The notes under the pieces: generated by a model
The model's input: only the letters and a program-made list of their open reading frames with translations
Database searches by the model: none
Told to the model about the DNA's origin: nothing
Shown: piece after piece, positions 1,359 to 8,963 of the stretch
Position numbering within the stretch: the first letter of the stretch is position 1
Layout: each line of letters starts with the position of its first letter
Assembly: GCF_020630935.1 (NCBI RefSeq)
Contig: NZ_JAHDIG010000007.1
Location: 1 to 62,205 of the forward strand
Origin: Bernardetia sp.
Lineage (GTDB): Bacteria; Bacteroidota; Bacteroidia; Cytophagales; Bernardetiaceae
DNA length: 62,205 nucleotides
Direction of reading: 5' to 3'
Program-made: the position numbers and the translations under genes

Positions 1359-1414
1359 TTATAGAAAAAAATAAGCCTTTCTTCATGTAGAGAAAGGCTT
1401 ATTTTTTTCTATAA
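1359..1414. terminator. Bidirectional terminator, 24-bp perfect stem
   Basis: Bases 1359-1382 and 1391-1414 form a perfect 24-bp inverted repeat around the 8-base loop tcatgtag. A-runs on the left and T-runs on the right make it a Rho-independent terminator in both directions. It lies between the converging gene ending at 1337 and the HlyD gene ending at 1427. Confidence 0.92.
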
Positions 1415-1426
1415 GCTATAAACATT

Positions 1427-2758
1427 TTATTCGAAAGCTTCAATAGAATAAATAGTTTGCTCCAAAAATTTATCTAATAGGCTTCTTTCCTCCAGTACTA
1501 TTTCTACTACTCCATAGATTTCACTCTTTGCATCCAAATCTATTTCTTTATTTCGATTGGTGGTCAGACCGTTTTCTAGTTTGAGTTGTACAGAATATTG
1601 ATTTTCCTGTGGCGCAAGACTAATTTGAGCCACTTCTGCTTCTAGCCAGCCATAACGAGCAAAAGGGTATGCTTCTAACTTTATTTTTGCCTTATTAGCA
1701 TTTTGCCCTGTCGTAAGTTTTGAAATATGTTTGGCTTCTACTTTGGTGTAAGCATACGTTGCATTTTCTTGAGGAATGATAGAAACAATTTCTTTATCTA
1801 TTCCTACTGACTGATACAGATTGATAGGATTAAAAAAGTTTACTTTTCCTTCTATTGGACTGATAATTAAATAGTTACTCTTCCAATCTTCTAACATCTT
1901 TTTAAGTGAAGCAAAACTTGTTCTTAGTTCTTGTTTGTATTTAAAGGCTTGTTCTCTAAAGGCAATAGATACCTCTACAAGCTGCTGATTGAGCTGGCTT
2001 ACTCTCATTTTGGCATTTAGGTTGGCTTCTTTGTTTTGTAAGAAGCTACTTTCTTTGTTCAGAAATGCACTTTTTGTCTGTAAAAACTCTTGCTTTGCAA
2101 TCGCCTCACTTTTGTAGAGCAAAGAATCTGTAATGTATTTTTGTTTGCTTAATTCATAGTCCCTTTTTTGAAGTTCATATTTTTCATCTACTATTTTACT
2201 TAGTGAATTTTGAATTTCTATTTCAGAACGAATAGCAGCCTGTTTTTGTGCGTGCGAGTTGGTTTGTGAAAAAAGCTGATAATCTAAAATGCTATTCTTA
2301 AATCTCTCATAGTCTAATTGTAGATTTCCCAAACTTGTAAAAATAGGAATTTCATTTTCTGTAAAGAAGGCTATATTTTCAAAGGCAGCATTCTGAGAGG
2401 AAATCGTATCCAAATAGCTTTCCAAACGTTGGGCTTCTTTCCAGTCTGTTGTGCTTTCCAAAACTATTAAAAGCTCATTTTCCTTTACATCTTGACCGTG
2501 TTTTGTATTGATAGAAACAATACGACTATTAATTTTAGGAAATAGATTTGCCTTTGCTTGATTAGCATAAATAGTAACACTTGAAGTAGAGAGTTCTGGA
2601 TAGCGAATAAAATATGAAACTACAAACATCAATAGCAATACACCAAAGACGATTGTGATTCCTGAGCGCATTAAAAATCCTTGGGGAGCTGTGAGTAATT
2701 CTTGTGTTTCTTCTGAATAGGAGCGAAAAATAGCTTCTTTATCGTTGTTTTCTGGCAT
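1427..2758 (-). CDS. HlyD-family periplasmic adaptor of a peptide exporter
   Basis: Membrane-fusion (HlyD-like) subunit of a type I-style peptide secretion system. One N-terminal transmembrane helix (about residues 33-57, ending FIRYPEL) is followed by a lipoyl/barrel half (VKENELLIVLES), a long alpha-helical coiled-coil stretch rich in Q, K, S and E, and a returning barrel region (SPIEGKVNFF) with a C-terminal beta domain. It would link the inner-membrane C39 ABC exporter (6750-8963) to an outer-membrane channel; no TolC-type gene lies in the window. I chose ATG at 2758 (443 aa, starting MPENN). A GTG at 2791 overlapping the upstream stop (TAGTG) would add 11 residues. A TATCTTTG box on the minus strand at 2794-2801 would fire downstream of that GTG, weakly favouring the ATG. 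Last gene of the peptide operon. Confidence 0.88.
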   Translation of the reverse strand: MPENNDKEAIFRSYSEETQELLTAPQGFLMRSGITIVFGVLLLMFVVSYFIRYPELSTSSVTIYANQAKANLFPKINSRIVSINTKHGQDVKENELLIVLESTTDWKEAQRLESYLDTISSQNAAFENIAFFTENEIPIFTSLGNLQLDYERFKNSILDYQLFSQTNSHAQKQAAIRSEIEIQNSLSKIVDEKYELQKRDYELSKQKYITDSLLYKSEAIAKQEFLQTKSAFLNKESSFLQNKEANLNAKMRVSQLNQQLVEVSIAFREQAFKYKQELRTSFASLKKMLEDWKSNYLIISPIEGKVNFFNPINLYQSVGIDKEIVSIIPQENATYAYTKVEAKHISKLTTGQNANKAKIKLEAYPFARYGWLEAEVAQISLAPQENQYSVQLKLENGLTTNRNKEIDLDAKSEIYGVVEIVLEERSLLDKFLEQTIYSIEAFE

Positions 2759-2790
2759 TAAAATATGGTATATCTTGAATTGAAAAATCA

Positions 2791-4419
2791 CTACAAAGAT
2801 AATTGTTCTTCTTTGTTTTCTTCCACTTCGTCCATCTCATTAGCCAAATGAACTAAGAAATATTCCAAATCTGAAACTCTATAATTTTCTGGTAGAAGCC
2901 TTCCATTTACAATAAAAGCTGGAGTAAAGGTAATTCCCTGCTGATTTATCCAAGCATAATGTTCTGAAATAATGCTCTCTTTTTCACTTTCTGAGTAAGG
3001 TGTTGGAAGGTCAGAAAGCATTTCTGAGATTTGTTTGTAGTCTTCATTTTTCTGACTCATCGTCAGATGACAAGTTGTAGTGGTAAAATAATTACCGAAG
3101 CTTTCTCTTAATTTTTGTAAATCTTTCTTTGCCGTTTTGCACGGTGGACACGTAGGGCGACTAATTACTACCAATGAGACTTTATTATATTCCTCTTCGT
3201 CATCAACAGAAACGTCATTTCCTTCAACAAAATGTGTTGGTATATGCGTAGTATCTATTTTTCTAGATTGTGAGAGCAGAGTTTGAAAAAGCTCAAAGTC
3301 ATATTTGAAAGAATGTAGTTTCTGATTTTTATTTTTATAGGAATTGTATTTTGTGAAAATAGGTTTTAAAACATTCCATACAAGGGTAGGCAATAGAAAG
3401 GCAAACAGAAATATAGAAAGAGCAGAAATGAAAGTAAATGTTGTAATATTAGGGGCATCAGAAACAGATAAAAAAATTCCTCCTAATATAGCTTGTACAG
3501 ACAATACTGCCATCACAGAAACGCACAAAGAACACCACGTTTTGAGTACAAATTTTTGATAGTAGAGCGAAGTAATTACTGCAACTATTCCCAACACAGC
3601 TATCAAACTTTGAATGAATAGCCCAAAAGCATTACTAATGAGTAAGAAGAGAAATCCTCCAAAGAAATAATAAACACCCAGTTCTGAAAAAGTAAACCAG
3701 TTTTTTAGAGTATCAATTTTAGTTGTTTTGTCTGTATTTGTTGTATCAGCACAAGAGGATGAGTTACCAAAGGCAGTACAGGCTTTTTTGAAAACCACAT
3801 TGTCTTTAAAAATTTCTCCAGAAAGTAAGATTGCACTAAGTACGAACCCAATACCATGAAGAAGGTAAAATGAGATTTCAAAAAGGGAAGAAATAGAAAA
3901 ATTACCACTTGAAAATAGAGAATTTCCAATTATGAATAAAAGTGAAGCAACAACTAGCACTTGGACAATCGTTTTGCTAGTGTTCAATACTTTTTGTTTT
4001 TGTTCTGCTTTCTTGTGAGCAAGATAATTAGGTTCTTTAGAATTTTTATTCTTGTCTAATAGAAGTGTGTAGCCTGTCCAAGATTTCTCAAAATCTTCTA
4101 TTATAACAGATTTTTTTTCTCCTTTAGGGCTTATCAGACTTACTTTCTCGTCTTCTAAACTTTCTAAAACGAAATAGTCATTATGAACTTTACCATTTTC
4201 ATCTTCTTCAGCAGACAAAACGAGTGCAGGTAATGGTATTTCTGAAAGCTCCTCTCTTCCAATCTGCACAGCCAAAGAATCTACTTTATAATAAGCCAAG
4301 AGCAATTTTATATCACTCAATGTTTGTGCATTATTACACTTTTCTGTAAGTGTTTGTAAATAAAAAGGTGTGTATTCTACGCCTAATTTATCTAATAAGA
4401 TGGTAATTGTATTTTTCAT
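2791..4419 (-). CDS. Degenerate C39-like domain + VKOR + thioredoxin fusion (disulfide-forming membrane protein)
   Basis: A 542-residue fusion from ATG at 4419; an upstream ORF extension of 33 residues looks unreal. Residues 1-140 resemble a C39 peptidase (LLAYYKVDSL, PLPALVL, YFVLES, SWTGYTLLL) but lack the catalytic Cys and the His before FV, so the domain is probably a non-catalytic binding module. The middle is a multi-pass VKOR domain: loop cysteines around FGNSSSC and the membrane CxxC in WCSLC. The C-terminal part is a thioredoxin domain with CPPC (C424, C427) and cis-Pro loop TFTPAF. VKOR-Trx fusions make disulfide bonds in the periplasm using quinone. Its place directly downstream of cysteine-rich GG-leader peptides suggests it oxidises them. 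The partners are inferred; the domains are well supported. Confidence 0.9.
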   Translation of the reverse strand: MKNTITILLDKLGVEYTPFYLQTLTEKCNNAQTLSDIKLLLAYYKVDSLAVQIGREELSEIPLPALVLSAEEDENGKVHNDYFVLESLEDEKVSLISPKGEKKSVIIEDFEKSWTGYTLLLDKNKNSKEPNYLAHKKAEQKQKVLNTSKTIVQVLVVASLLFIIGNSLFSSGNFSISSLFEISFYLLHGIGFVLSAILLSGEIFKDNVVFKKACTAFGNSSSCADTTNTDKTTKIDTLKNWFTFSELGVYYFFGGFLFLLISNAFGLFIQSLIAVLGIVAVITSLYYQKFVLKTWCSLCVSVMAVLSVQAILGGIFLSVSDAPNITTFTFISALSIFLFAFLLPTLVWNVLKPIFTKYNSYKNKNQKLHSFKYDFELFQTLLSQSRKIDTTHIPTHFVEGNDVSVDDEEEYNKVSLVVISRPTCPPCKTAKKDLQKLRESFGNYFTTTTCHLTMSQKNEDYKQISEMLSDLPTPYSESEKESIISEHYAWINQQGITFTPAFIVNGRLLPENYRVSDLEYFLVHLANEMDEVEENKEEQLSL

Positions 4420-4508
4420 TTTGAGATTTTTTATCAAAAAATAGTGACAGAAACTTATAGTAAGCTCTATCACTATTTTTAGTATCAATATAAAGATTGA
4501 TGGTTTAC

Positions 4509-4664
4509 TTACACCCAATCACAATTTGGATTTGGTTTACATAGTTTAGTTGGAGGACAACAACAAGGGTCATTAGGGTCGCAGTTTCTCCATCCCCCAT
4601 TTACATTTTTAGCTTTCGTTTGAGAGATAGCAAATTTTCCGAATTTCTTTTTTAATGATTTCAT
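4509..4664 (-). CDS. Double-glycine-leader Cys-rich peptide precursor (peptide C)
   Basis: A 51-residue precursor. Its 24-residue leader starts MKSLKKKFGKFAIS and ends VNGG, nearly identical to the leaders at 4847-5020 and 5492-5713. The predicted core after GG is 27 residues with six cysteines, including a CCC run (PNDPCCCPP) and many Pro and Asn. The GG leader is the known cleavage signal for C39 peptidase ABC exporters, one of which lies at 6750-8963. Last peptide gene before the VKOR fusion, 90 bases upstream of it and on the same strand. I infer an exported, disulfide-bonded peptide (bacteriocin-like or signalling); the activity is unknown. Confidence 0.85.
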   Translation of the reverse strand: MKSLKKKFGKFAISQTKAKNVNGGWRNCDPNDPCCCPPTKLCKPNPNCDWV

Positions 4665-4691
4665 ATATTATGTTTTTTATTTGTGTTAAAA

Positions 4692-4830
4692 TTAAAGTTC
4701 CCAGCACTCAAGTGGGTCATTTGGGTTAGGCAAATATTTATTTAAACAAGGATAAGGAGGAGTTCCTCCATTTACTTTTTTAGCTTTTTTCAGAAATAGC
4801 AAATTTTCGAATTTCTTTTAAAGATTTAAA
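4692..4830 (-). pseudogene. Broken GG-leader peptide gene (peptide B)
   Basis: A decayed copy of the neighbouring peptide genes. At 4828-4830, where the paralogues have ATG, there is TTT. The leader then reads KSLKEIRKFAISEK, with small indels against KSLKEKFGKFA. A one-base gain in an A-run throws the frame into a stop, while the other frame continues AKKVNGG and a 23-residue core ending LECWEL, with two cysteines. An ATG at 4860 is in frame with the leader part but lies inside the previous gene and still hits the stop. Either a real pseudogene or an assembly error in homopolymers; resequencing would tell. Confidence 0.75.
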
Positions 4831-4846
4831 TAAATATGAGTTAACG

Positions 4847-5020
4847 TTAGGCACGCTCATCACAACATATCATTTCACAAATAGTAGGTACTTGCAGATA
4901 AGTGATTGTTGCACAATCAAGTGGCAACTCACCACAATTGCAATCACGCCCACCTGTTATTCTGTTAATTTGTTTTTCAGAAACAGCAAATTTTCCGAAT
5001 TTCTTTTTTAATGATTTCAT
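4847..5020 (-). CDS. Double-glycine-leader Cys-rich peptide precursor (peptide A)
   Basis: A 57-residue precursor from ATG at 5020; a longer frame upstream is AT-rich and not conserved with the paralogues. The leader is 24 residues (MKSLKKKFGKFAVS to ITGG). The core is 33 residues with six cysteines (CNC near its start, ICCDERA-like end after EM), weakly hydrophobic in the middle. Same leader family as 4509-4664 and 5492-5713. First of a run of peptide genes leading into the VKOR and HlyD genes, so probably the head of that operon; a palindrome at 5076-5092 lies about 55 bases upstream. Predicted to be cut after GG and exported by the C39 ABC protein. Confidence 0.87.
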   Translation of the reverse strand: MKSLKKKFGKFAVSEKQINRITGGRDCNCGELPLDCATITYLQVPTICEMICCDERA

Positions 5021-5075
5021 CTTAAAATATGACTTTAAAAATTTGAATAAAAAAATAAATATCAAATTACTTTTT

Positions 5076-5092
5076 ACTTTTAGTAAAAGTAC
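5076..5092. promoter_or_regulatory. Near-palindrome shared with 6634-6650 (candidate operator)
   Basis: acttttagtaaaagtac: 7-bp arms (actttta / taaaagt) around one central base. It matches 6634-6650 at 15 of 17 positions. It sits about 55 bases upstream of the peptide A start, while its twin lies upstream of the divergent ABC exporter. Candidate binding site for a shared regulator; no regulator gene is visible in the locus. Confidence 0.45.
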
Positions 5093-5418
5093 TTGAGTAA
5101 TGTTGATGATTCAAATATTATAAAAATATTTTTTAAGTCAAAATACTGAATTTAGTACATAGTATGTTTTAATTGTGTAAATCGCTGTTATTTAGGTGTT
5201 TATAATTAATTGTGCGTTCTTTATTTAACATATATAAACACTTTTGCTGCATTTTTTTATGAAAACTACTTGTTTGTTACTTTTTTATTGTGAATTATAT
5301 CTTACAAAAACTCAACACAAAGTTCTAAAAATCAACATTTAGCCAAACCATTCTTAATATAGCTGCCACGTTCCACAAAATTATTATGATAGAGGTTTGT
5401 ATGTGTTTTTTTAGAAAC

Positions 5419-5460
5419 AATAAAACTGTTTATACTAGATGTAGTATAAACAGTTTTATT
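5419..5460 (-). terminator. Terminator of peptide D gene, 18-bp perfect stem
   Basis: Bases 5419-5436 and 5443-5460 pair perfectly over 18 bp around the loop agatgt, with flanking A/T runs. It is 31 bases beyond the stop of the peptide gene at 5492-5713, making that gene its own transcription unit, separate from peptides A-C. Confidence 0.88.
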
Positions 5461-5491
5461 TGCCATTGATTGACCTCAATAGATTAATTTA

Positions 5492-5713
5492 TTAATAAAC
5501 ATAGTAACAGCGTATTGATTCTGGTGTAGGTCTTACACCACAATTTGTGTATATGTTTCCATCTCTATCTCTATAATCGCAACAGTGTGTTCCTCCATGA
5601 CTGTAGTCCACATGAGCATCTATTGGAGGAGTAGTTACATCTCCACCAACAAGATTTCTAGTTTCTTTTTGAGATAAAGCAAATTTTCCGAATTTTTCTT
5701 TTAAAGACTTCAT
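5492..5713 (-). CDS. Double-glycine-leader Cys-rich peptide precursor (peptide D)
   Basis: A 73-residue precursor. The 24-residue leader (MKSLKEKFGKFALS to LVGG) is of the same family as peptides A and C, but the core is longer (49 residues) and unlike them: proline- and histidine-containing start, then THCCDYRDRDG, and two further cysteines, four in all, ending CYYVY. It ends at a strong terminator (5419-5460) and so is probably monocistronic. Shared leader means shared exporter (6750-8963); the divergent core suggests a different target or function. Bacteriocin-like activity is inference only. Confidence 0.87.
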   Translation of the reverse strand: MKSLKEKFGKFALSQKETRNLVGGDVTTPPIDAHVDYSHGGTHCCDYRDRDGNIYTNCGVRPTPESIRCYYVY

Positions 5714-6022
5714 AAATAAATTTTTGAAAAGTGTTAAAAATTAAGTTATTTATTGAAGTAGTAGTAGCTTATTTGCACATATAAAGTTATATAGATTACA
5801 ATAACTTTATATCACAATATTAGGAAAATAATATTCTTATTTCAAGAAAATCAAAGAAAATGCTTCTTGTTTTTCATAAACTGTTGTGAAAAAGACACCT
5901 TTGGTATGTTTTCTTACATAAAGCGTTTTGTGTTTGTATCAAGTAAAATAGCTTTGATTTGTTCCACTTAAAAAATACTTATTAGTTGTTCAATTCCTCT
6001 AAAATTATCTACTTCGTTTTTT
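5714..6022. other. Intergenic region with 12-bp inverted repeat
   Basis: 309 bases without a gene. Bases 5779-5790 (atataaagttat) and 5801-5812 form a perfect 12-bp inverted repeat around a 10-base loop, 66-99 bases upstream of peptide D. There is no T-run on either side, so an operator or RNA hairpin is more likely than a terminator. Confidence 0.45.
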
Positions 6023-6470
6023 TTACTCTAAAAGAGCGTCAATTTCGCTTGTATATAGTGAAAAGTAATTATAAAGATGTTGAGAATAGCCAAAAGTTGT
6101 AAAGCGTATGACTCCTGTCTTATCGATAAAGTAACTTTTTGGAGCTGAACTAGTCAGATAGTGTTCTTTCAAAAAGCCTTTCGTTACATTTTGGTAATCC
6201 TTGCTTACTACTTCACCTTTGAAATAACCGTCTCCTGCTTTATCCAAGTAGGAAGTTAGTATGACTTTTATTTCATCGTTCATTATAATACCTTTCTCTA
6301 AACCCTTTTACATTTGTTGAATCTTCTAGATAATTCTGTAATTTTAAAAAATCTTTTGGTGTATCATAATGAGATATAACTAAAAAAACTACGTCTTTAT
6401 TCTGATTTTTATAATGCTCTGGCAATTTATTTATAAATGAAACCTCACGCATATTTAGTAAAATATCCAT
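6023..6470 (-). pseudogene. Split thioredoxin-fold (TlpA-like) gene remnant
   Basis: Two minus-strand frames that overlap by 11 bases (6273-6470, then 6023-6283) together resemble a TlpA-like protein. The first gives the middle of the fold (FINKLPEHYKNQNKDVVFLVIS). The second gives the end (APKSYFIDKTGVIRF, the usual strand before the last helix). The N-terminal strand with its WCxxC is missing: the frame opens just upstream at FYSIGKEC with one cysteine only, and no ATG precedes it. I read this as an inactivated thiol-disulfide gene in the peptide locus. Two genuine short proteins translated by overlap cannot be excluded. Confidence 0.45.
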
Positions 6471-6630
6471 CTTCTCTTTACATTCTTTTCCAATAGAATA
6501 AAATTAAAAAGTAAGTTATTTTTTGTTTTTAATGTATTGTTTGTTTATGTTTGTATGTTGAAATTAGTTTTTTAAAAAAAAAGTGTTTTTTATTTTTTAT
6601 ATTATGTTTTTTAAATGAATTTTAATAAAT

Positions 6631-6651
6631 GGTACTTTTGATAAAAGTACC
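6631..6651. promoter_or_regulatory. Palindrome shared with 5076-5092 (candidate operator)
   Basis: A perfect 9-bp inverted repeat (ggtactttt / aaaagtacc) around the 3-base centre gat. The inner 17 bases differ from 5076-5092 at two central positions only. It is 36 bases upstream of the -33 element of the ABC exporter promoter, a suitable place for an activator or repressor site. Confidence 0.5.
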
Positions 6652-6686
6652 TAATTAGTGTTTTTGATATGAAAATTAAAGGTTTA

Positions 6687-6716
6687 TTGCAGTTTGAAAA
6701 TTTTGAGCTACTTTTG
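6687..6716 (+). promoter_or_regulatory. Promoter of the C39 ABC exporter
   Basis: TTG at 6687-6689, a 19-base spacer and TACTTTTG at 6709-6716 fit the Bacteroidota consensus (TTG-N19-21-TAnnTTTG). Transcription would begin near 6722, giving a leader of about 28 bases before the ATG at 6750. Confidence 0.7.
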
Positions 6717-6749
6717 TGAGGAATTTATAACAAGACAAAAAAATAAAAA

Positions 6750-8963
6750 ATGGCAAAGTTTCCTCACGTCAAGCAGCGAGACCAAATGGATTGTGGTCCG
6801 ACGTGTTTGAAGATGATAACCAAACATTACGGCAAAAATTTTTCTCTGCCTTTCCTTAGAGAAAATGCTTACATCGGAAAGCAAGGCGTTTCATTGTTGG
6901 GAATTGCTACAGCAGCCGAAAAAATAGGACTTCGAACGCTTTCTGTACAGATAGATATTCAGACGCTCATAGAGGAAAAACCTGTTCCTTTCATCGCACA
7001 TTGGAATCAGAATCATTTTGTAGTGGTGTATAAAATCACTAATAAGAAGGTTTTTGTAGCTGACCCAGCCTCACAACTTTTAGAATATAGCCACGAAGAG
7101 TTTAAAAAAGCGTGGATACAAGGACAAGCCACCGAAGGAGAAGACGGAGAAGAAAGAGGAATTGCACTTCTTTTGGAAACCTCCCCAGATTTTTATGCAC
7201 AGGAAGATGTAAAAGAAAGCAAAGCTACTTTTGGCTACTTATTAAAATATCTAAAGCCTTATAAAGCTATTATTTTTCAGTTGTTTTTAGGGCTTCTGGG
7301 AGCTACTTTGCTTTCACTTTTTTTACCACTTCTTACACAAGCCTTAGTAGATACAGGGATTCAGCAGAAAAATTTATCTTTCGTTTATGTGGTTTTGGCA
7401 GCGCAACTGGTCTTTTTTGTATCTAAAAACTTAATCAACCTTATACGAAGTTGGATTTTGTTGCAAGTTTCTGTTCGACTGAATATTCAGATTGTCTCTG
7501 ATTTTTTGGCTAAACTTATTCGCCTTCCTCTACCATTTTTTGAATCTAAAAACTTGGGAGATATTCTTCAGCGTATGCAAGACAATCAGCGCATCGAACA
7601 GTTTTTGAGTGGAACACTTTTAGATTTTATTTTTTCGTTGGCAAGTCTTTTCTCTGTCGGCATACTTGTTATTTTTTATAGTCCAATAATCTTTTTGCTT
7701 TTTCTAATAGGAAGTAGTTTGTATGTTACTTGGATATTGCTCTTTTTAAAGAAACGAAGACTTTTAGACGATAAGCGTTTTGCACTTTCTTCTTCTACAC
7801 AAAGCAACGAAGTAGAACTCGTACAAGGAATGGCAGAAATTAAGTTCAATAATTTTGAGAAGGAAAAACGTTGGGAATGGGAACGATTGCAAGTCAAGAG
7901 AGCAAAACTGGCAATGCAAAGTTTGAGATTAAGTCAATTACAACAGTATGGAGGAGGGTTTATAAACGAACTTAAAAATATTATTATTACTTTTTGGGCT
8001 GCTTACGAAGTTATTCAAGGAAGTATGACACTCGGTATGATGATGGCAGTACAGCAAGTTTTAGGTCAGATGGAAGTGCCTTTAATTCAATCAGTGAGTT
8101 TTATTCAGCAAGGTCAAGATGCTAAACTAAGTTTGGAACGCTTAGGAGAAATTCACGACCAAAAAGATGAGGATGAAGAAAGTGAAAACTCGCTGATTAA
8201 AGAATTGCCAGTAGGAGAATTTTCCAAAGATATTTATTTGAAAAATGTAACATTCAGATACGGAACACCACATAGCCAACCTGCCATAGACGACCTTACG
8301 CTTCATATTCCAGCAGGAAAAACAACAGCAATTGTAGGTGAGAGTGGAAGTGGAAAGACAACGCTTTTGAAATTATTATTGAAATACTATATTCCTCAAA
8401 GTGGACAAATTACGGTAGGTTCTTTGCCATTGCCAGTGCTTAGTAGTTCTATTTGGCGTGCTACGATTGGTTCTGTGATGCAGGAAGGATTTATTTTTTC
8501 TGAAAGTATTGCTAAAAACATTGCGTTAGGAGATGATAACCCTACACAAAGAAGACTGATAGAAGCCACCCAAACAGCCAATATTTTTGAACATATTCAA
8601 AGCCTACCACTAGGTTTTCATACAAAAGTAGGACAGTCGGGGGAAGGATTGAGTCAAGGACAAAAGCAACGTCTTCTGATTGCTCGTGCCGTTTATAAAA
8701 ATCCAGAGTATTTGTTTTTTGACGAAGCTACTTCGGCACTAGATGCCAAGAATGAAAAAATAATTTCTAAAAACCTTCAAAACTTTGGACAGTCTAAAAC
8801 ACAAATTATTATTGCCCATAGACTGAGTACAGTAAAAAATGCAGACCAAATTGTGTTTTTAGAAAAAGGAAAAATAAAAGAGTTAGGAACACACGAAGAG
8901 CTAGTGAAAAAGCGAGGTATGTATTACAATCTTGTCAAAAACCAATTGGAACTTGCAGGATAA
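6750..8963 (+). CDS. C39 peptidase-containing ABC exporter (double-glycine peptide processing and export)
   Basis: A 737-residue bifunctional exporter. Residues 1-140 are a C39 cysteine peptidase with catalytic C15 (DCGPTC), H89 (NHFVVV) and D105 (VADP), which cuts GG leaders during transport. Residues about 160-470 are the six-helix transmembrane domain. The C-terminal ATPase has Walker A GESGSGKTT (about 530), signature LSQGQKQR (about 635) and Walker B LFFDEA with its catalytic Glu. Full length, all motifs intact. It is transcribed divergently from the peptide genes and needs the HlyD protein (1427-2758) as periplasmic adaptor. The natural substrates are the four GG-leader peptides next to it; that link is inferred from context and family knowledge. 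Confidence 0.95.
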   Translation: MAKFPHVKQRDQMDCGPTCLKMITKHYGKNFSLPFLRENAYIGKQGVSLLGIATAAEKIGLRTLSVQIDIQTLIEEKPVPFIAHWNQNHFVVVYKITNKKVFVADPASQLLEYSHEEFKKAWIQGQATEGEDGEERGIALLLETSPDFYAQEDVKESKATFGYLLKYLKPYKAIIFQLFLGLLGATLLSLFLPLLTQALVDTGIQQKNLSFVYVVLAAQLVFFVSKNLINLIRSWILLQVSVRLNIQIVSDFLAKLIRLPLPFFESKNLGDILQRMQDNQRIEQFLSGTLLDFIFSLASLFSVGILVIFYSPIIFLLFLIGSSLYVTWILLFLKKRRLLDDKRFALSSSTQSNEVELVQGMAEIKFNNFEKEKRWEWERLQVKRAKLAMQSLRLSQLQQYGGGFINELKNIIITFWAAYEVIQGSMTLGMMMAVQQVLGQMEVPLIQSVSFIQQGQDAKLSLERLGEIHDQKDEDEESENSLIKELPVGEFSKDIYLKNVTFRYGTPHSQPAIDDLTLHIPAGKTTAIVGESGSGKTTLLKLLLKYYIPQSGQITVGSLPLPVLSSSIWRATIGSVMQEGFIFSESIAKNIALGDDNPTQRRLIEATQTANIFEHIQSLPLGFHTKVGQSGEGLSQGQKQRLLIARAVYKNPEYLFFDEATSALDAKNEKIISKNLQNFGQSKTQIIIAHRLSTVKNADQIVFLEKGKIKELGTHEELVKKRGMYYNLVKNQLELAG

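Follow-up and report, generated by a model that had tools for sequence, protein, structure and literature searches.

How might a bacterium furnish small secreted peptides with disulfide bonds, and what use could it have for a leader-protease domain that has lost its catalytic Cys? Both questions are raised by one locus on a 62,205-nucleotide stretch of Bernardetia sp. DNA (contig NZ_JAHDIG010000007.1; hereafter the window, meaning this whole stretch; the host genome amounts to 4.75 Mb in 153 contigs). Here, Cys-rich precursors with a double-glycine (GG) leader lie beside a C39 peptidase-containing ATP-binding cassette (ABC) exporter (PCAT), an HlyD adaptor and a fusion of degenerate C39-like, VKOR and thioredoxin domains. 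An earlier note on this DNA had read these parts from the letters alone, and Pfam searches and a structural model bear them out; of the four different precursors it counted, three are intact and the fourth, at about 4692-4830, survives as a frameshifted relic, and it missed a broken TlpA-like gene (6023-6470) and the intergenic hairpins. We found that the fusion is a family spread across Bacteroidota and linked to GG-leader Cys-rich peptides. On this footing we hold it somewhat probable that the locus directs biosynthesis of disulfide-bonded, bacteriocin-like peptides, whose precursors would be oxidised in the cytosol, before export, by an inverted, leader-guided and quinone-coupled fusion enzyme.

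The fusion gave Pfam matches to Peptidase_C39 (2.5e-13, starting at profile position 18) and VKOR (6.7e-7, over the cut-off), together with a Thioredoxin_2 match (7.3e-6) of 26.7 bits against a cut-off of 27. An AlphaFold2 model made with 65 aligned fusions (mean pLDDT 87.6) supports all three folds. Its C39-like part matches the C39 domains of PCAT1, LahT and HlyB over about 120 residues (Z 11.9-13.9; 13.0 for leader-bound LahT, 6mpz), and its other parts match VKORs (Z about 11) and DsbA/ScsC-like proteins (Z about 11-12). The Synechococcus VKOR structures 3kp9, 4nv2, 4nv5 and 4nv6 score Z 10.3-11.3, with a root-mean-square deviation of about 20 where the rows span both domains.

For comparison across the phylum, two sets of fusions were assembled. 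The first came from a scan of a species-genome collection with the pattern K[KTE]WC[SLP]LC[VL][SAG], which returned 135 matches, 117 of them confirmed, and the best 80, making up 79 distinct loci in named genomes, were retained; the fusion is present in all 79, as an open reading frame (ORF) of more than 480 codons in 77 (L050 is in two pieces and L079 is shorter). The second was drawn independently from a class sample of 395 genomes with a fusion profile (E 0.001; at most three candidates scored per genome). Here 70 genomes matched, 24 of them with long fusion matches as judged by reading, and 20 of these 24 form the second set (the other four, G000, G019, G037 and G038, had been covered already), although its genomes may partly be of the same species as first-set loci. 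The set of genes that the earlier note took for a possibly undescribed system is thus not supported as unique, its fusion enzyme being widespread in Bacteroidota.

Residue by residue, 80 fusions (that of the window and 79 others) were compared with 26 exporter C39 domains in an alignment. Cys, His and Asp are all present in every one of the 26 exporter domains. The catalytic Cys occurs in none of the 80 fusions (12 are gapped at that position, with none within a few columns), and the other C39 residues are retained in few: the oxyanion Gln in 3, the His in 11, the Asp in 16, and His and Asp together in 4. The fusions therefore lack the residue set of an active C39 peptidase and possess the C39 fold without its Cys, that is, a C39-like domain (CLD), or dead leader-protease domain. 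The redox Cys show the reverse. The VKOR loop Cys pair is kept in 80/80, standing with the CxxC in a helical bundle as in the VKOR family, and the thioredoxin CxxC in 79/80, the remaining fusion being truncated. The VKOR CxxC is present in 80/80 too, although the scan pattern had required it. In the profile-found second set (n=20) the catalytic Cys is found in 0/20, and the loop Cys pair, the VKOR CxxC and the thioredoxin CxxC in 20/20 each.

How closely this enzyme is tied to peptide genes was gauged with a strict leader regex. It matched 246 of 6398 small ORFs, spread over 64 of the 79 loci, with 243 of the 246 on the fusion strand; the same 6398 ORFs gave 2 matches when reversed and 2.05 on average when shuffled. 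Eleven of the 15 regex-negative loci were re-inspected by eye under a looser rule, and 9 show variant GG/GA/GS precursors (L095 and L103 showed none by eye under that rule); the four outside this re-inspection were L051, L053, L094 and L124, three of them contigs shorter than 5 kb. Where each flank spans 5 kb or more (61 loci), GG ORFs with at least two Cys were present in 51, an exporter within 5 kb in 31 and an HlyD homologue in 31. The second set behaved likewise, with GG ORFs in 18/20 loci (44 of 1653 ORFs; 1 when reversed; 39/44 on the fusion strand), a PCAT in 16/20 and an HlyD homologue in 15/20. In contrast, the same regex found 0 GG ORFs at 20 VKOR loci without a C39-like part, controls that were picked by hand, mostly with an open frame not of fusion length, and in which the lack of a C39-like part means no match to the fusion profile. 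This co-occurrence lends strong support to the earlier note's idea of a disulfide-peptide system built on a dead C39-VKOR enzyme.

Core Cys numbers count in favour as well. Across 239 distinct cores those with 4, 5, 6, 7 and 8 Cys number 91, 10, 100, 14 and 15, with peaks at 4 and 6 and a dip at 5, and the second set gives 8, 1, 20, 2 and 7, while antisense small ORFs fall steadily (26, 13, 7, 3 and 1). The three intact precursors of the window carry 6, 6 and 4 core Cys behind a common leader, MKSLKxKFGKFAxSxxxxxxxxGG, which runs 24 residues to the GG, and the leader regex applied to the whole window matches these three only. Their residues at -4 and -12 before the double glycine are hydrophobic, as PMC6363468 describes for PCAT substrates; in the 246-ORF set these two positions were imposed by the regex. 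In that set (L049-L127) position -7 is Gln in 227/246 and position -8 is Glu in 182/246, so that these leaders differ from LahT substrates, which are described with a hydrophobic -7. The core of the relic resembles an intact precursor of a congener.

Curated families account for few of these peptides. When 112 linked precursors were sampled, the matches at E 0.01 were TIGR04149 10, NF047798 6, NF047792 2 and Bacteroid_pep 11 (all weak), which leaves at least 83 of the 112 outside all four families. In the window TIGR04149 scored 17.9 and 11.5 bits for two precursors against a cut-off of 25 and did not match the third. That family is named for radical S-adenosylmethionine (SAM) modification, unlike this locus, where no radical-SAM gene stands among the genes identified, and an identity as radical-SAM ribosomally synthesised and post-translationally modified peptides was rejected because the scores lie under the curated cut-off. 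Two orphan precursors with 4 core Cys each were also seen elsewhere in the same genome, one on contig C21 (L256:8541-8705, leader profile 2.1e-12) and a weaker match (0.003) on contig C8 (L257:8055-8342). The latter adjoins an ORF (L257:8478-9500) that contains a CxxxCxxC stretch resembling a radical-SAM motif.

How, then, might the parts work together? In the scheme we favour, a precursor, whose short core holds 4 or 6 Cys behind a GG leader of 24 residues, would be bound through that leader, in the cytosol, by the dead C39 domain of the fusion. The VKOR part, reversed relative to ordinary VKORs, would form a disulfide by reducing membrane quinone and pass it on to the thioredoxin domain, which would lie on the cytosolic side as well and oxidise the core while the leader is still attached; we infer this direction of electron flow and this order of steps. 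The PCAT would then cut after the GG and, together with HlyD and a channel in the outer membrane supplied from elsewhere, export the folded core. A cytosolic orientation removes a difficulty of any periplasmic model, because the leader would be gone before periplasmic oxidation could take place.

The earlier note had proposed a search of relatives with the leader profile as its own check, and this was largely passed: the profile matches 10 of 59 relatives, namely all seven genomes of the genus, two others of the family, G010 (leader and fusion, with no exporter match) and G007, and, weakly, G014 (0.009, with an internal stop); G008 and G009 have the exporter without leader or fusion. An exception is G007, whose leader match (4.3e-6) comes with no fusion or exporter match, and it heads a series of findings that weigh against the proposed scheme. 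An exporter lies inside the fetched flanks for only 40 of the 79 loci. At twenty PCAT loci without a reported fusion there are 9 GG ORFs, of which 3, in 3/20 loci, have at least 4 Cys, and the looser rule flags 4 ORFs in 3/20 of the VKOR control loci, although these are not leader-like by eye. An even number of Cys is weak evidence taken alone, being found in 123 of 169 non-precursor ORFs with at least 4 Cys, and given this figure a p-value on Cys parity was dropped as over-stated; one control class also shows more ORFs with 6 than with 5 Cys (40 versus 31; perhaps missed precursors). The conservation of K293, W295, C296 and C299 in the 79 loci was imposed, because the scan pattern contained them. 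The second set does test these residues, and there C296 and C299 are present in 20/20 and K293 in 15/20. K293 also adds to the charge count discussed below, and the far-side loops are short, which biases that count in favour of the scheme. Chemically, a disulfide made in the cytosol must survive its reducing conditions, and synthetic bacteroidetocins made without disulfide-forming steps were potent (PMC6671954).

Bacteroidetocins bear most directly on what the products do. The peptides might be signals, adhesives or protease-inhibitor-like molecules instead of antibacterials, an alternative we consider doubtful, though the least so of those weighed here. It would fit the weak matches of a few cores to disulfide-rich modules (WAP 0.0048; cystine knot 0.0055) and the many paralogues at some loci (L097, with 16 GG ORFs). 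Bacteroidetocins, the nearest characterised peptides, kill (PMC6671954), and NCBIfam gives the name putative bacteriocin to a few of the weak precursor matches; both speak against such other roles. Numbers of paralogues are high at the Tenacibaculum loci L097, L100, L105 and L106, where 14 to 16 GG-leader Cys-rich ORFs surround one fusion.

According to PMC6671954, bacteroidetocins (proposed class IIf) comprise a GG-leader Cys peptide, a C39 exporter, an uncharacterised five-transmembrane protein and a thiol oxidoreductase, and deleting the gene for either of the last two attenuates activity; the text of that paper nowhere uses the terms VKOR, thioredoxin or C39. Shared with the present locus are the phylum Bacteroidota, GG-leader Cys peptides, a C39 ABC exporter and no obvious immunity protein. 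The differences lie in leader length (15-16 residues versus 24 in the window) and in gene make-up, as two separate genes there encode the five-transmembrane protein and, in most regions, the thiol oxidoreductase, whereas the window has one six-helix fusion and a broken TlpA-like gene. Membership in the bacteroidetocins was rejected on these two features, leader length and a separate thiol oxidoreductase, with the C39 exporter in common. We therefore regard them as the nearest characterised system, to which the present family is similar in its working and different in leader length and gene make-up. No bacteroidetocin cluster was recognised in 20 PCAT loci taken from 295 genomes of the order of G347.

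A second parallel is found in Gram-positive bacteria. Glycocins of the sublancin type use a C39 exporter with separate thioredoxin and DsbB-like helper genes; they share with the window locus peptide-specific disulfide helpers beside a C39 exporter and differ from it in glycosylation, there being no glycosyltransferase among the genes identified at the window locus. A glycosyltransferase does stand beside the fusion in four Cytophagales loci, L036, L037 (with a GT28/UDPGT-like Pfam match), L076 and the plasmid locus L181, and some products may therefore be glycosylated. Among the 79 loci, two encode a homologue of the L036 enzyme.

Does the dead protease domain read leaders, as the favoured scheme requires? 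Six of its nine nearly invariant positions fall within residues 29-50, around a helix that, by our reading, would correspond to the one lining the leader groove of LahT. According to PMC6363468, the C39 groove of LahT reads leaders and the C39-like domain of HlyB binds unfolded substrate. The fusion resembles the HlyB domain in the loss of its catalytic Cys and differs from HlyB, PCAT1 and LahT alike in that its C39 fold is joined to an oxidase and not to an ABC exporter. Fold similarity and the HlyB precedent would also fit a domain that docks the oxidase on the exporter without reading leaders, oxidation following from proximity alone. We think this rather unlikely, in view of the positions of the genes: the exporter is often far away and the precursors lie beside the fusion, which fits precursor recognition better but is not decisive.

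These positions are best seen within the genus. Among its seven genomes the fusion is intact in 5, has an interrupted frame in G005 and is present as fragments only in G004. Wherever else in the genus the fusion was matched, in five genomes, it is followed by an HlyD homologue 81-83% identical to that of the window. Fusion and exporter lie about 2.2 Mb apart in G001 and G002 and about 10 kb apart in G003; in G006 they are on separate contigs. Linkage of fusion and exporter is thus not conserved within the genus, and the compact set described in the earlier note is not a fixed one. Precursors occur beside the fusion and also at the exporter locus, and therefore the parts act in trans. Pieces of the fusion gene, largely from its 5' end, are found among congener precursor genes (L030:7823-7975; L033:7273-7441; L035:7815-8073; L041:11299-11364), as if copies arise and decay.

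Which side of the membrane the enzyme works on can be approached through its helices and charges. The model contains six long hydrophobic helices (within 132-170, 176-203, 244-261, 264-292, 297-319 and 330-372), and hydropathy agrees. The Synechococcus VKOR-thioredoxin protein has a plan of five, one fewer than the fusion. With six helices the C39-like domain, both VKOR Cys pairs and the thioredoxin domain consequently fall on one side. A five-helix topology, with the C39-like and thioredoxin domains on opposite sides, was rejected, as it came from a hydropathy count that merged two helices where the model gives six. Within 10 residues of the membrane, Lys and Arg average 8.9 on the Cys side versus 1.0 on the other, and the Cys side is higher in 78/78 fusions; counted over loops in the second set the figures are 13.5 versus 0.5, higher on the Cys side in 20/20. 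For the helices that bracket the CxxC, the Cys side is more positive in 71 of 78 fusions, the far side in 1, with 6 ties, while in the 20 VKORs without a C39-like part the far side is more positive in 17, the Cys side in 1, with 2 ties, so that the charge pattern of an ordinary periplasm-facing VKOR is seen in 17/20 controls and 1/78 fusions. Under the positive-inside rule this pattern would place the working side in the cytosol, and we infer that the fusion faces it, the reverse of ordinary VKORs. Three short stand-alone VKORs among the controls (L165, L172 and L173) have positive charges beside the CxxC, unlike the other 17 in degree, and perhaps are inverted too.

Apart from orientation, the fusion is like the Synechococcus VKOR in having the VKOR fold and two Cys pairs followed by a thioredoxin-type domain. 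It is unlike it in the added N-terminal C39-like domain and helix, the reversed charges, the DsbA/ScsC-like part and the linkage to GG peptides. Hatahet and Ruddock reportedly described an inverted VKOR of some archaea that makes disulfides in the cytosol, with neither a C39-like domain nor precursors.

The same dedicated oxidase could also face the periplasm and oxidise the core during or after export, with its C39-like domain, on that same side, keeping hold of the peptide or of the exporter complex. A periplasmic site of action is commonly assumed for ordinary VKOR-thioredoxin proteins, and it is there that HlyD and TlpA-like partners act. The TlpA-like gene, broken in the window, is uninterrupted in three congeners, with CGPC or CNPC, and lies nearby, adjoining the fusion in G005, near the fusion in G006 and near the exporter in G001. 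But the C39 domains of PCATs handle leaders in the cytosol and the charge pattern of the fusion reverses that of ordinary VKORs, and we judge a periplasmic enzyme to be unlikely.

Less likely again is that the fusion is the general disulfide oxidase of the cell and its peptide-gene neighbourhood incidental. It is the sole VKOR in 6 of the 7 genus genomes, that is, in each one that has the fusion (G004 has none), and DsbB was found in 0/7, both of which would suit a housekeeping role. We nevertheless hold that role improbable because the GG-leader linkage is specific (the 64/79 and 18/20 loci against 0/20 given above) and because G004 has neither a VKOR nor a DsbB match, even if G004 is one genome, about 93% complete. 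Its exporter is still there (79% identical over its length), along with pieces of the fusion and two weak leader matches, of which one contains a stop. Equally improbable is a reductive or isomerase function, by which the fusion would keep precursor thiols reduced or reshuffle wrong disulfides: TlpA-like genes do occur in G001, G005 and G006, in the neighbourhood of the fusion or exporter, and between fusions in Emticicia, but the VKOR relay is complete with both Cys pairs, and in the window genome the TlpA-like gene is broken and the fusion intact.

If the favoured scheme is true, it would provide a route to disulfide-rich secreted peptides in bacteria without a recognised general disulfide system, as is said of Bacteroides in PMC6671954 and as would apply to this genus, with no DsbB and no VKOR other than the fusion found. 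It would mean, too, that a dead protease domain has been put to new use in a redox enzyme, where it reads leaders, and, should the orientation hold, that guided disulfide formation occurs naturally in a bacterial cytosol. That enzymes of this kind form a class of their own in peptide maturation, in which a VKOR turned inside out takes guidance from a dead leader-protease domain and supplies quinone-derived disulfides in the cytosol, before export, to a phylum-wide and largely unnamed peptide family, we can suggest only tentatively, with somewhat less confidence than we place in the scheme itself. For genome mining the fusion offers a handle on 239 distinct cores at 64/79 loci; even the best-matching of the curated families searched covers 11 of the 112 sampled precursors.

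The fusion architecture is real and widespread, and within the reach of the search no description of it came to light. No account of VKOR and C39 together was found among the open-licence papers listed, a coverage that leaves aside the subscription literature, where an earlier mention is possible, and the text of PMC4555120 does not contain the words C39, peptidase or Bacteroidetes. In public plasmid annotation most fusions are labelled 'vitamin K epoxide reductase family protein'. In Parabacteroides distasonis the C39-like and VKOR-thioredoxin parts are annotated at L178 as two overlapping genes, and at L179 the fusion is next to a LanC-like protein, glycosyltransferase-type genes and a PCAT. 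Two proteins from the fusion-profile search of the 295 genomes already mentioned (L249:7624-8697 and L250:7598-8701) match the profile over the C39-like and VKOR parts, without thioredoxin and without GG peptides nearby; Pfam assigns them VKOR only.

The features of the window locus are collected below. ABC exporter and HlyD adaptor, the features of type I secretion, were both found, the HlyD model scoring under its cut-off. The adaptor ORF opens at 2791, with a probable ATG start at 2758. The exporter matches Peptidase_C39 (1.1e-37), ABC_membrane (4.1e-26) and ABC_tran (2.7e-28), and its catalytic triad is complete.

Table 1. Features of the peptide locus, with window coordinates and the basis for each assignment (MFE, minimum free energy; z-scores relative to dinucleotide shuffles).
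Feature	Position	Strand	Basis
Likely terminator, strong hairpin with U-rich flank, 3' of HlyD gene	1359..1414	-	MFE -30.5, z -8.6
HlyD-type periplasmic adaptor	1427..2791	-	TIGR01843 8.9e-26 (under cut-off)
C39-like/VKOR/thioredoxin fusion, 542 amino acids, six predicted membrane helices	2791..4419	-	Pfam and AlphaFold2 model
DsbA/ScsC-like thioredoxin domain, residues 384-530; C424-P-P-C427	2830..3270	-	Pfam, alignment, structural match
VKOR membrane domain, residues 176-325; C214, C223, C296-x-x-C299	3445..3894	-	Pfam, alignment, structural match
Extra membrane helix, residues 151-169, from C39-like domain to VKOR bundle	3913..3969	-	Hydropathy; model helix 132-170
C39-like domain, residues 1-128, without catalytic Cys	4036..4419	-	Pfam, alignment, structural match
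Possible attenuator, hairpin separating last precursor from fusion	4437..4480	-	MFE -20.6, z -5.3
GG-leader precursor, 51 amino acids, 6 core Cys	4509..4664	-	
Precursor relic, frameshifted (leader and core in different frames)	4692..4830	-	
GG-leader precursor, 57 amino acids, 6 core Cys	4847..5020	-	Weak TIGR04149 match 0.0021
Palindrome TACTTTT-N3-AAAAGTA, upstream of 4847-5020 precursor	5075..5091	.	
Likely terminator, long hairpin 3' of 5492-5713 precursor	5419..5460	-	MFE -23, z -8.9
GG-leader precursor, 73 amino acids, 4 core Cys	5492..5713	-	
TlpA-like thiol oxidoreductase gene, broken: CxxC region missing and frameshift	6023..6470	-	
Palindrome, second copy, upstream of exporter	6633..6649	.	
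C39 peptidase-containing ABC exporter (PCAT); catalytic C15, H89, D105	6750..8963	+	

A sigma-70 promoter scan performed at chance level (33 versus 31.2 expected), and a terminator scan returned 10 matches versus 3.2 expected, the three hairpins of the table not among them. The palindrome occurs in exactly two copies genome-wide, both within the locus, and no copy was seen at the corresponding genes in the genus loci examined; it is a possible shared operator on which we place no reliance. On the minus strand the order of transcription is the 5492-5713 precursor, a hairpin, the 4847-5020 precursor, the relic, the 4509-4664 precursor, a hairpin, the fusion, HlyD and a final hairpin. The second of these hairpins (4437-4480) could raise the level of precursor messenger RNA above that of the enzyme.

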